From: Candidatus Thalassarchaeaceae archaeon
GTDB taxonomy: Archaea > Thermoplasmatota > Poseidoniia > Poseidoniales > Thalassarchaeaceae
DNA: 42,061 nucleotides
Direction: 5' to 3'
Assembly (NCBI GenBank): GCA_030747675.1
Contig: JASLKH010000077.1
Span: forward strand, 1 to 42,061
Shown: in pieces, positions 18,986-22,884 of the stretch
Numbering within the stretch: the first letter of the stretch is position 1
Layout: every line of letters begins with the position of its first letter
Made by a program: the position numbers and the translations under genes
Notes under the pieces: model-generated
What the model saw: the letters and a program-made list of their open reading frames with translations, nothing else
Database searches by the model: none
Told to the model about the DNA's origin: nothing

Positions 18986-20860
18986 CTACTCTACAGAAAT
19001 CGGCAATAAAACTCTCCTTTTAAGTGGGCGTAGTATTGCTTTCATTTCTCTTTGAGGCTTCTTTGGAACCAATACTTTTCGGGATACTGGTTGCAATAAT
19101 TCACTAGGGTTGAAGTCTTCAACTTCAAGCCCCCTAACTCCAGTTGTTAAATCTCTTAATTTATCCAAATGCAATTCAATTGCTAGCATTCTATCAGCGA
19201 AGGATACCAATTCTGATTCACTAGCAGAACCAATCTGATCTGAAATCTCTGAAATTTCACTGGTCAATTCACGCAATTCAAATCGGTGCTCGTGAATTAC
19301 ATTTTCTAAACGACCAAGGGCATTATCAGTCAATGCCTCTAGATTTGAGCCTGCAAATAATTCCGGCTTTGAAGTCGCTGCTCTACTTCTAGCCTCAATC
19401 TCCTGTAAGTGGCCTCTTAATTGATCACCTGCAATTTTTTGTGCAGAATCATAAGAATTGGGTAACGATATTTGCGGGGGCTCGTAATCATCATTCCAAT
19501 CTAAACCCTTACTAATAATCTCGGCTCGATAATCTGCCGGCTCCGGTAAAACAGTATCTAACACATCAGAGACAATTTTAGCCCCAATAGAATCAGAATC
19601 TAATACCGTTTCGATTTCATTATCACGCATCAATGGTTCATTTCCCGATAGCAATGAAATTATCTCAGCTGTACCTATCAATTCAGCACCAGATTCTATA
19701 GAAAGACAAACTGTTTCGAACTCTGCCTTGGCCCTACTCCATTCACCTCTACACCTTGATGCAATTATTTTCAACTGCGGATCTGTGAGAGATACGCCCC
19801 TTGAAAGGGAATTTTTCCTGAGAAAAAGAAGTACTGTTTCCTCGGATGGTTGTTTGAGTTCTACGTGTACACCTGCCAAAATAGCCTGTCGAAGTCGCCC
19901 CACGGGAAGGCTATCTGAGGATAGTTTTCGAGAAGATGTCAGAACTACTTGAGCACCAATATCAATTGCCCAACCCACCAAATTTGCAAGTAAATCAGCA
20001 CCTTTTGGTCTTCTGATGATTCTATCTGTATCATCGATAAGTAGAGTGCTTGCTCTCATCAATAAGTCATCCCAACCATCAGGTAACTCTTCGGCAGGAA
20101 ATGTTTCTGATGTTATCAATCGAACATCTCGGTCAGGAATATTTGCTGCAAGAGAGTCCCCTATAGCCCAGAGCAAGTGACTTTTCCCCGAACTAGAAGG
20201 ACCGGAAATGAGGAGAGGGTTCAACCTTTTACCTGGGTAATCAATAACTTCGTTAGCAGCTTGAGTGGCCACTCTATTCGATGGGCCACGCTGCCATTTA
20301 CTGAAATTGGAATTCGGCCTTGGGGACAAAATTGGTGGCCAATAACCGGCATAATGTACTGAAGGTGACATCGGTTCAGTAATCTGAGGGCTGCCTAATT
20401 CTGCTTCAGTAAGTGGTTCTGGAGGCGAAATATGTCGTTGTTGATCAAGAACTTCTCTCCAAACTGGTCGGACACCGTCTCGATCTGTTGGAGAATCCTC
20501 GCCGACGACCCAGCGAGGTGTCCCCGGTGGTAATTCTGAAGGATCAACTTCCAATTCCAAAGGACTACTCTGGAGTATTCGAGATCGCATAGCTTCCATC
20601 CGAGAATGAACTGTTTCAGCATAATTTGTCTCATCGCCACTCAATATCGAAAGGCGGTCGAGAGGACCGGGGGCATCACTTGGTAAATCGTGACGTTCAA
20701 TGAAGCGCTGTTCGGAACGCTTCTTTTCTCTAATTGAAATATGGTCAAACAACGTACTCTTTTGTTCATTTTTCCGATCATCATCGCCTCCAGAATGACC
20801 AAGGAATCTTCGACTCCTTTCCATTGCTTCACGGAAATTGGAGCGGTTATGGATACTCAT
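18986..20860 (-). CDS. DnaA-type AAA+ ATPase lacking the DnaA DNA-binding domain
   Basis: 624 aa in three parts. Residues 1-180 are charged and probably disordered. Residues about 183-395 match DnaA domain III closely: FSKWQRGPSNRVATQAA then PGKRLNPLLISG leading to Walker A GPSSSGKSHLL (220-230), Walker B LLIDD (273-277), sensor 1 VVLTSSRK (306-312) and a sensor 2 arginine (R376). Where DnaA has its arginine finger (SRF of RLKSRFGWG), this protein reads RLRQAILAG, with alanine at 326. Residues 400-624 are long helices, probably coiled coil, with a basic end; there is no domain IV helix-turn-helix or DnaA signature. Start ATG 20860 overlaps the upstream gene stop as ATGA. It is probably not the replication initiator, since archaea use Orc1/Cdc6. 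Its role is unknown. Confidence 0.85.
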   Translation of the reverse strand: MSIHNRSNFREAMERSRRFLGHSGGDDDRKNEQKSTLFDHISIREKKRSEQRFIERHDLPSDAPGPLDRLSILSGDETNYAETVHSRMEAMRSRILQSSPLELEVDPSELPPGTPRWVVGEDSPTDRDGVRPVWREVLDQQRHISPPEPLTEAELGSPQITEPMSPSVHYAGYWPPILSPRPNSNFSKWQRGPSNRVATQAANEVIDYPGKRLNPLLISGPSSSGKSHLLWAIGDSLAANIPDRDVRLITSETFPAEELPDGWDDLLMRASTLLIDDTDRIIRRPKGADLLANLVGWAIDIGAQVVLTSSRKLSSDSLPVGRLRQAILAGVHVELKQPSEETVLLFLRKNSLSRGVSLTDPQLKIIASRCRGEWSRAKAEFETVCLSIESGAELIGTAEIISLLSGNEPLMRDNEIETVLDSDSIGAKIVSDVLDTVLPEPADYRAEIISKGLDWNDDYEPPQISLPNSYDSAQKIAGDQLRGHLQEIEARSRAATSKPELFAGSNLEALTDNALGRLENVIHEHRFELRELTSEISEISDQIGSASESELVSFADRMLAIELHLDKLRDLTTGVRGLEVEDFNPSELLQPVSRKVLVPKKPQREMKAILRPLKRRVLLPISVE

Positions 20861-22884
20861 TTTTCGGCCTCCTCTAAGGACATTAGTGCGTTCTCAGGAT
20901 TAATCTCAAACATATCAATGATGTGTTTAGTTTCAATTCCTTTTTCGTCTAATAATTTAATCCTCTGCCAAATCGTTGATTCCTTATTGCCTCTTGCAGA
21001 AAAAGCATTCTCCATTGTGTGAATTCCAGATTTTTCTAAATCTGCTAACCTACCCGTCAAATGTAGTGTACGCTGAGCCTTACTACTTGCTTCCCTTACA
21101 GCATCGTTTGATGTTAAAGGTGGGGCTTGAATTTCTTGTTCAGAACCTGATGCCGCTCTAATTGCTGCATTCATACCAATTAATCGCATGTCAGGTTCAT
21201 CTTCAACACCAAAATCATTGCTGATTAGGCGTACTCGATTTGAGGCTGAATCAAGTACATCGCGACGACTTATTGCATCACCTGGAATGTTAACAGCGGC
21301 TTCGACATCTGTGGCTTTTGAAGCAGCCAATGCTAGACCATCTCGGGACAATTTTGTTGAGTCTTCAAAGAGTAATTCTCCAACTTCTTGTTTTACTTTC
21401 CCTGAATCTGGGAGGGCTTTCCTAATTCGCTTAACACGGCGGACTCTGCGGGGAGAATTACCTCTGTGGTTCACCGTAGGTTTCCTTGGGCCTTTGACTT
21501 CAATTTCTATTGGCTTAATCTGTTCGGTTTCGACTGGCTCTTTTTCAATTAATTCTGGAATTTCATCAACGATTTCAACAGAATCATCTGTACTGGTTTC
21601 AACGCCTCTATTTGCTGAAGGGGCTAATGCCCATTCAGGTAAATTGTCATCGTCTTCTTCAACGGTTCCACCATCCTCGAACGATGATGTAGCCTTTGTT
21701 GCAACATCTCCAAGTTCACTGTGCCTCTCTTCCCGCCAAGCCTCAACCAAACCACTAATGGAATATCGATTGACATCTTGGGATGGTAGCGGATCCGTAG
21801 ATTCAGGTTGAATTAATTCGGATTCAATCGGGTCTGGTATTTCAATTGCAATCCAATCGTCTGAGCAAAACGGATGCCCCTCCAAGCGTGCAGGTCTCTC
21901 AGCCCAATGAATCACTCTCTCATTGTTTAGCACATCGATTTCACGCGACAGAATTGATCGCTGGCGAGAATCCCAAACATCTAGATCCGCTGGCATTAAA
22001 AGCAAATTTTCCGATGTGGTAAATGTATCAACCAATGAGCGAATGAAATCGAGAGTTCGGTTGAAACCGTGATACCCTGAAAGAAATTCAAGACCATCTA
22101 AAACGATACATGCTCGAGTATTTCCGAATAAGAAATCATTAATCTTACGACGTATTTCTTCGAGAGCAACGCTGAGAGTATTTTCCCCACTACCCTTTTC
22201 AGTTAACCATGCAGTCAAATCTACTGGAATCCCCATTTCCGATTCCAACCGATTGGTAGGTATTCTTGAAATCACCAAAAGTGGATGCCCTATAGACCCT
22301 AGGTGGGATGCAATCTGAATTGTTTCTGTTGGAGAAGGAGAGTCAATTAACGCCACCATGCCCGGCAATATTTCTGAACCTGGGTGGAATGGCAGAGGTG
22401 GTAAATTCGAATCTAGAATTTCCTCTACTTGTTCGTCTTGATCGGTCCAATCATCGAGTTTTTTCCATTGCCTCTTCTTGCGTTGTCTTTCTCGCCACCA
22501 CAATTCAGACTCATCTGAATCAGCCCATTGAATGGATTCCCCTGCATCTAAATGGAGGCGTGCCAAGGGATGTAAATCTTCTATGATATCTAAATTAATA
22601 TCTAAGTGACATGACAATTGGCTACCTTCCAACCTTGATGCTTCTTGAAATGCACCTAGCGCCGTATGCCCAATCATCAAAGTTCCATCTGATGTTTCAA
22701 ACAGCACCATTGAAGGTGTCCCTTCACGAATGGTGATTTGCCCCACTGCACCTCCTAGTGCTCCTGCTTCACAACGAATGTAGCCCGTTTCGGAACGTTT
22801 CTGCATATCGACCAAAAGAAGTTCGAGAACACCAGCGCCACCACGCCGAGATTCCGTCAAATTGCCCCTAGGTAGTTCGACCAT
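20857..22884 (-). CDS. DUF835 protein with DUF4388/PATAN-like N-terminus
   Basis: 675 aa. Residues about 15-112 look like a DUF4388 (PATAN) domain: hydrophobic helix VLELLLVDM, then RSETGYIRCEAG, GQITIREGTPSMVLFET and a helical end. Residues about 165-320 look like DUF835, a RecA-fold relative without a P-loop: RACIVLDGLEFLSGYHGF (258-273), LDFIRSLVDTF, and LLLMPADLDVWDSRQRSILS. The rest is acidic linker, a basic patch (RRVRRVKRIRK) and C-terminal helices. DUF835 is frequent in euryarchaea and linked to signalling by context only. It is the first gene of an operon with the DnaA-like ATPase (four-base overlap), so the two products likely act together. Confidence 0.75.
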   Translation of the reverse strand: MVELPRGNLTESRRGGAGVLELLLVDMQKRSETGYIRCEAGALGGAVGQITIREGTPSMVLFETSDGTLMIGHTALGAFQEASRLEGSQLSCHLDINLDIIEDLHPLARLHLDAGESIQWADSDESELWWRERQRKKRQWKKLDDWTDQDEQVEEILDSNLPPLPFHPGSEILPGMVALIDSPSPTETIQIASHLGSIGHPLLVISRIPTNRLESEMGIPVDLTAWLTEKGSGENTLSVALEEIRRKINDFLFGNTRACIVLDGLEFLSGYHGFNRTLDFIRSLVDTFTTSENLLLMPADLDVWDSRQRSILSREIDVLNNERVIHWAERPARLEGHPFCSDDWIAIEIPDPIESELIQPESTDPLPSQDVNRYSISGLVEAWREERHSELGDVATKATSSFEDGGTVEEDDDNLPEWALAPSANRGVETSTDDSVEIVDEIPELIEKEPVETEQIKPIEIEVKGPRKPTVNHRGNSPRRVRRVKRIRKALPDSGKVKQEVGELLFEDSTKLSRDGLALAASKATDVEAAVNIPGDAISRRDVLDSASNRVRLISNDFGVEDEPDMRLIGMNAAIRAASGSEQEIQAPPLTSNDAVREASSKAQRTLHLTGRLADLEKSGIHTMENAFSARGNKESTIWQRIKLLDEKGIETKHIIDMFEINPENALMSLEEAEK

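Follow-up and report, generated by a model that had tools for sequence, protein, structure and literature searches.

The window (the whole stretch of 42,061 nucleotides that was analysed) contains a gene, gene 2, encoding a protein of an archaeon with a AAA+ domain of the DnaA clade, which corresponds to DnaA domain III and is not followed by a domain IV. Comparison of sequences suggests that gene 2 and the adjacent gene 1 are a split, rearranged and ATPase-degenerate version of a protein in which DnaA-type AAA+ and DUF835 domains are fused in one chain. The gene 2 protein is probably a non-hydrolysing pseudo-AAA+ scaffold or assembly subunit in a signalling complex of the KaiC/DUF835 type. 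The features of gene 2 are listed below, with their basis in brackets.

18986..20860, minus strand: gene 2, degenerate DnaA-type AAA+ protein, 624 aa (ORF list, profiles, orthologs)
19640..20323, minus strand: AAA+ core and lid, equal to DnaA domain III, residues ~180-407 (profiles, PDB and fold matches, hhalign)
20180..20203, minus strand: residues 220-227, Walker A motif (GPSSSGKS), unaltered in the window copy (ortholog alignment)
20054..20113, minus strand: shortened stretch at the site of the DnaA initiator-specific helix, residues 250-269 (alignment spacing, model)
20030..20044, minus strand: Walker B LLIDD, residues 273-277, conserved (ortholog alignment)
19883..19885, minus strand: A326, which occupies the place of the arginine finger, E. 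coli R285 (alignments)
19733..19735, minus strand: R376 at the sensor 2 position, E. coli R334, present in the window copy (alignment)
19145..19597, minus strand: C-terminal helices, residues 422-572, replacing domain IV (predicted structure)

In the Pfam profile search, PF00308 (Bac_DnaA) matched residues 185-315 of gene 2 with 57.6 bits (cut-off 23). The NCBIfam profile TIGR00362 (DnaA) matched residues 182-371 only, leaving domain IV unmatched, and the 79.9 bits obtained for the whole protein miss its equivalog cut-off of 343.9 bits. Hda (TIGR03420) scored 39.1 bits, below its cut-off of 194.8, the IstB profile scored 12.5 bits, and no match to the ORC/Cdc6 and RuvB families was found in the Pfam and NCBIfam searches. 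None of the AAA+ clades that the initial annotation had named as refuting alternatives scored better than DnaA. All PDB sequence matches were DnaA proteins, with 2z4r, 8bv3 and 8btg as the best. The predicted structure is confident at residues ~171-410 (mean pLDDT 85-96 in blocks of ten), and its closest fold in Foldseek was domain III of B. subtilis DnaA (8bv3, TM 0.86 on target); Hda and RuvB structures ranked behind DnaA. The initial annotation, made from the sequence letters, had recognized DnaA domain III and had named a profile search and a structure prediction as checks, and both agree with it.

The C-terminal ~217 residues are predicted to form helices at 422-437, 469-495, 506-543 and 548-572, followed by a low-confidence tail from residue 573 on. 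The earlier description of this part as about 220 residues of helix therefore holds in part. No Pfam match to domain IV was found in gene 2, and the domain IV signature GGRDHTT was present in none of 63 Poseidoniales sequences, while the E. coli control was positive. Together with the end of the TIGR00362 match at residue 371, this confirms the absence of domain IV noted at the outset.

Judging by its named relatives, the genome of this marine archaeon is an assembly from Candidatus Poseidoniales (Marine Group II), of the Thalassarchaeaceae kind. Of 59 relatives, 43 have an ortholog of gene 2, and so do 178 of the 293 genomes that were sampled from the class. Most of these genomes are incomplete assemblies, so that lone absences mean little and agreement at the level of genera counts. 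In 14 close ortholog pairs, one of which has an Arg in place of the Walker A Lys, dN/dS was 0.04-0.10, which indicates that the degenerate DnaA-type gene is maintained by purifying selection. It is extremely improbable that the gene reflects a chance resemblance, bacterial contamination or a decaying pseudogene. One related assembly (L119) does contain a genuine dnaA of bacterial origin as a contaminant, but gene order and open reading frames are conserved across the order, dN/dS is low and the copies come from independent assemblies of several projects. One ortholog (L014:1498-3360, G003) is broken by an in-frame TGA, due to either a sequencing error or a recent loss.

Motif columns were read on an alignment of 60 unique Poseidoniales sequences with E. 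coli DnaA; only unique sequences were counted, 62 at first and 60 after removal of L119 and the E. coli control. L119 was considered as a Poseidoniales copy with an arginine finger and rejected: its gene (L119:1594-2967, G135:C23) encodes a bacterial DnaA of full length with domain IV, and the assembly, which is filed under the window's own family, is contaminated. The reference residues of DnaA, whose numbering was verified against the E. coli protein, were taken to be R285 for the arginine finger, D269 for sensor 1, R334 for sensor 2 and V211 as part of the initiator-specific motif.

The arginine finger column contained A in 21 orthologs, L in 18, V in 18, I in 2 and S in 1, and R in none of the 60. 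The initial annotation had described A326 as a replaced box VII arginine. The residue is indeed altered, at the finger of the SRF motif (R285), whereas the box VII arginine (E. coli R281) is retained in gene 2. Likewise, the proposed alignment of orthologs confirmed that finger and domain IV are missing throughout the order, but the alanine itself is not conserved and varies between A, L, V, I and S. Two further losses had not been noted before. In the window copy the sensor 1 Asp is replaced by Ser, and this Asp is present in only 4 of 60 orthologs. The distance from the Walker A Lys to the Walker B Asp is 50 residues compared to 57 in DnaA, and residues 250-269 form a single short helix in the predicted structure. 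Since this spacing is 48-53 in all 60 orthologs and the V211 column is a gap in all of them, it is concluded that the initiator-specific helix is deleted. Walker B is well kept (D235 column: D 56, E 4; D236 column: D 58), the Walker A Lys is found in 42 orthologs and replaced in 18 (R 11, C 5, G 2), and the sensor 2 Arg is found in 30. The Poseidoniales copies thus form a natural series of ATPase decay, in which every copy has lost finger and initiator helix, many have lost sensors and some the Walker A Lys.

These counts also bear on whether the protein could be an ATP-dependent switch, which would bind ATP and change its partner binding upon ATP/ADP exchange in the absence of neighbour-stimulated hydrolysis. 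In the window copy and across its whole genus, both Walker motifs and the sensor 2 Arg are intact, and the Walker A Lys is retained by most orthologs; therefore the window copy may bind ATP, and these same observations speak against a pure scaffold. The loss of the Lys in 18 of 60 orthologs and of the sensor 2 Arg in half of them, together with purifying selection on a close pair carrying a Walker A Arg, makes a switch rather unlikely. ATP binding without neighbour-stimulated hydrolysis, as initially suggested, fits the window copy and does not extend to the family, which can dispense with Walker A itself and in which the losses of the Walker A Lys and of the sensors imply that nucleotide binding is perhaps not conserved. 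It is very improbable that a relocated finger restores hydrolysis, or that the gene 1 partner does so by supplying an arginine in trans. Many Poseidoniaceae copies do have R or K two residues past the lost finger (SRLWELTRH, SRLWDLVKN), but this residue is missing in the window's genus (RLRQAISSG) and several lineages that have the R have no Walker A Lys.

DnaA is regarded as the hallmark replication initiator of bacteria, and Orc1/Cdc6 as that of archaea. Two Orc1/Cdc6 genes were identified in the genome to which the window belongs, and no DnaA domain other than gene 2 was found in this assembly. PF00308 also gave raw profile matches in the controls M. jannaschii, Haloferax and Methanosarcina. 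Both genes of the pair are missing from 7 of 18 sampled genera. The presence of two Orc1/Cdc6 genes and the existence of whole genera without the pair make a function in replication initiation unlikely. It is well supported that the gene 2 protein is not a replication initiator, and a repurposed DnaA core, which had been proposed on the grounds that archaea use Orc1/Cdc6, is far likelier.

For a replication accessory, i.e., an Hda- or DnaC-like loader or regulator acting on the Orc1/Cdc6-MCM system, the order of the nearest families would be fitting, with DnaA followed by Hda (TIGR03420, 39 bits). Such a role is nevertheless improbable, as initiator-specific motif, arginine finger and domain IV are all lost, the genera without both genes must still replicate, Orc1/Cdc6 is present, and the partner is a DUF835 protein and no replication protein.

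This partner is encoded by gene 1, which is located upstream of gene 2 and has the following features.

20857..22884, minus strand: gene 1, N-domain, DUF835 and a mostly disordered tail, 675 aa (Pfam, gene order)
22549..22884, minus strand: N-domain of gene 1, residues 1-112, uncharacterised (hhalign, HMM hits to fused proteins)
21937..22329, minus strand: DUF835, residues 186-316, with a degenerate fold of the KaiC/RecA type (PF05763, hhalign)
21406..21492, minus strand: conserved basic motif of the PRxxQRx-RRKK type, located within the disordered gene 1 tail (alignment A2, R467 invariant)
20857..20860, minus strand: ATGA, shared by the stop of gene 1 and the start of gene 2, translational coupling (locus comparisons)

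PF05763 (DUF835) matched gene 1 with 69.8 bits (cut-off 33.1), and the domain showed weak matches to KaiC/RecA folds. DUF835 counts as one of the inactivated KaiC-type domains that occur in archaeal response regulators (PMC5847659). The two genes are adjacent throughout Poseidoniales, and the 4-base overlap was observed in 31 of 40 listed locus comparisons, in which one genome is counted twice. Separate searches for gene 1 and gene 2 in the 59 relatives identified the same 11 of 18 genera for both. The genes around the pair, which include citrate synthase, GDPD, an aminotransferase and a CxxCxxCC protein, are also conserved; this looks like plain synteny without a functional hint.

The N-domain resembles DUF4388/PATAN by eye only, and as no Pfam family matches it, this assignment is not claimed. 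A link to the archaellum was likewise rejected: PF01917 is out of step with the pair by genus, with the pair occurring without archaellin in g2 and g4 and archaellin without the pair in g5 and g6. PF04659 had no match in the 59 relatives and is uninformative for this link. The basic motif in the tail (21406-21492) is strongly conserved and may serve to bind nucleic acid or the partner.

From Thermoplasmatota outside Poseidoniales, 40 homologous proteins (L079-L118) were gathered. In 25 of these, AAA+ and DUF835 are present in one chain. The N-domain is also found in 21 of the fused proteins, in the order N-domain, coil, DnaA AAA+ and DUF835, where the coil part often includes a zinc ribbon, and four have AAA+ and DUF835 without it; in L082, DUF835 is encoded by the next gene and not in the same chain. 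All three domains of the window pair could be aligned with those of the fused proteins by profile comparison, namely the N-domain of gene 1 (hhalign probability 99.5, E 3.5e-22), its DUF835 (hhalign E 3.7e-27) and the AAA+ domain of gene 2 (profile-profile E 3.2e-25). The window pair thus carries the homologous domains on two genes that are adjacent and co-occur. Neither the coupled DUF835 gene nor these ATPase-intact relatives, which show the kinship of the gene 2 protein, were part of the initial annotation.

Unlike the Poseidoniales copies, the 40 homologs all have the Walker A Lys, and the finger position is occupied by R in 32 and K in 5. Sensor 1 Asp and sensor 2 Arg are each found in 32 of 40, near-normal initiator-helix spacing (53-58) in 36, and the domain IV signature, as in the Poseidoniales copies, in none. 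The AAA+ domain of L098 is 57% identical to Priestia megaterium DnaA. L098 and L082 even pass the TIGR00362 equivalog cut-off (351.8 and 344.4 vs 343.9 bits) though they lack domain IV; scores of this kind can lead to erroneous 'replication initiator DnaA' annotations, of which annotators should be aware.

In a tree that includes two bacterial DnaA only and has a midpoint root, the Poseidoniales copies form one group on a long stem with a support of 100/100. The simplest history is a fused ancestor, followed by fission with rearrangement and then by loss of the ATPase function; owing to the two bacterial sequences and the midpoint root, the order of events may also have been the opposite.

With respect to function, the DnaA half would have become a pseudo-AAA+ protein in Poseidoniales, in which the fold, Walker B and the DnaA-specific N-linker persist. 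Arginine finger, initiator-specific motif and sensor 1 are lost, and many species also lack sensor 2 or the Walker A Lys. Given these losses it would not hydrolyse ATP. It would bind the N-domain/DUF835 protein, which would be made adjacently by coupled translation, and act as a non-hydrolysing scaffold or assembly subunit of a KaiC-type signal transduction complex. The signalling role of the pair is inferred from the inactivated-KaiC nature of DUF835 (PMC5847659) and from the neighbourhood of the homolog L085. The fused proteins elsewhere in Thermoplasmatota would act in KaiC/DUF835-type signalling as well, in which ATP-driven assembly may be used. The occurrence of a genuine DnaA domain III without domain IV, often tailed by DUF835, in many Thermoplasmatota families suggests that a DnaA core can become wholly detached from replication. 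A wider scenario, in which Thermoplasmatota adopted a bacterial DnaA core as a signalling motor and Poseidoniales split it and turned the motor into an ATP-independent scaffold, which would make the pair part of an undescribed non-replicative DnaA lineage, is given slightly less than even credence.

Among known systems, gene 2 shares its fold, N-linker segment, Walker A and B and lid with bacterial DnaA (TIGR00362; PF00308), but lacks domain IV, the arginine finger, the initiator-specific helix and the sensor 1 Asp, and its split-operon partner is a DUF835 protein. Hda (TIGR03420), the regulatory inactivator of DnaA, is also a DnaA-type AAA+ protein without domain IV; unlike Hda, gene 2 has long N- and C-terminal helical parts, no arginine finger and an archaeal host. 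Gene 1 shares DUF835 with archaeal KaiC-like or inactivated-KaiC (DUF835) signal transduction proteins, in which degenerate ATPase domains also serve as signalling modules, whereas the coupled second subunit here is a degenerate ATPase of the DnaA and not of the KaiC type. No description of fused N-domain, DnaA AAA+ and DUF835 proteins was found in the open-licence literature that was searched, and neither was a paper that treats DnaA of Marine Group II, Poseidoniales or Thermoplasmatota together with KaiC.

Several of the homologs outside Poseidoniales have additional peculiarities. In L085 (1007-6454) and L100, the DnaA AAA+ domain occurs with an N-terminal signal/fn3-like part and a membrane segment, and it adjoins KaiC, a 7TM-DUF835 gene and a second fn3-like gene; such a protein may be a membrane receptor equipped with a DnaA motor. 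The fused AAA+-DUF835 proteins L086, L089, L099 and L106 (family f24) have lost the initiator helix independently (spacing 42) and have a Lys at the finger position. A helical protein with multiple zinc ribbons (cluster c10) adjoins the fused gene in 7 of 20 non-Poseidoniales loci (L079:6628-8298 and six others) and is a candidate third component. Giant proteins of >1200 aa were observed in L080, L083 and L110, with long coiled-coil repeats before the DnaA AAA+ domain and zinc ribbons after it.
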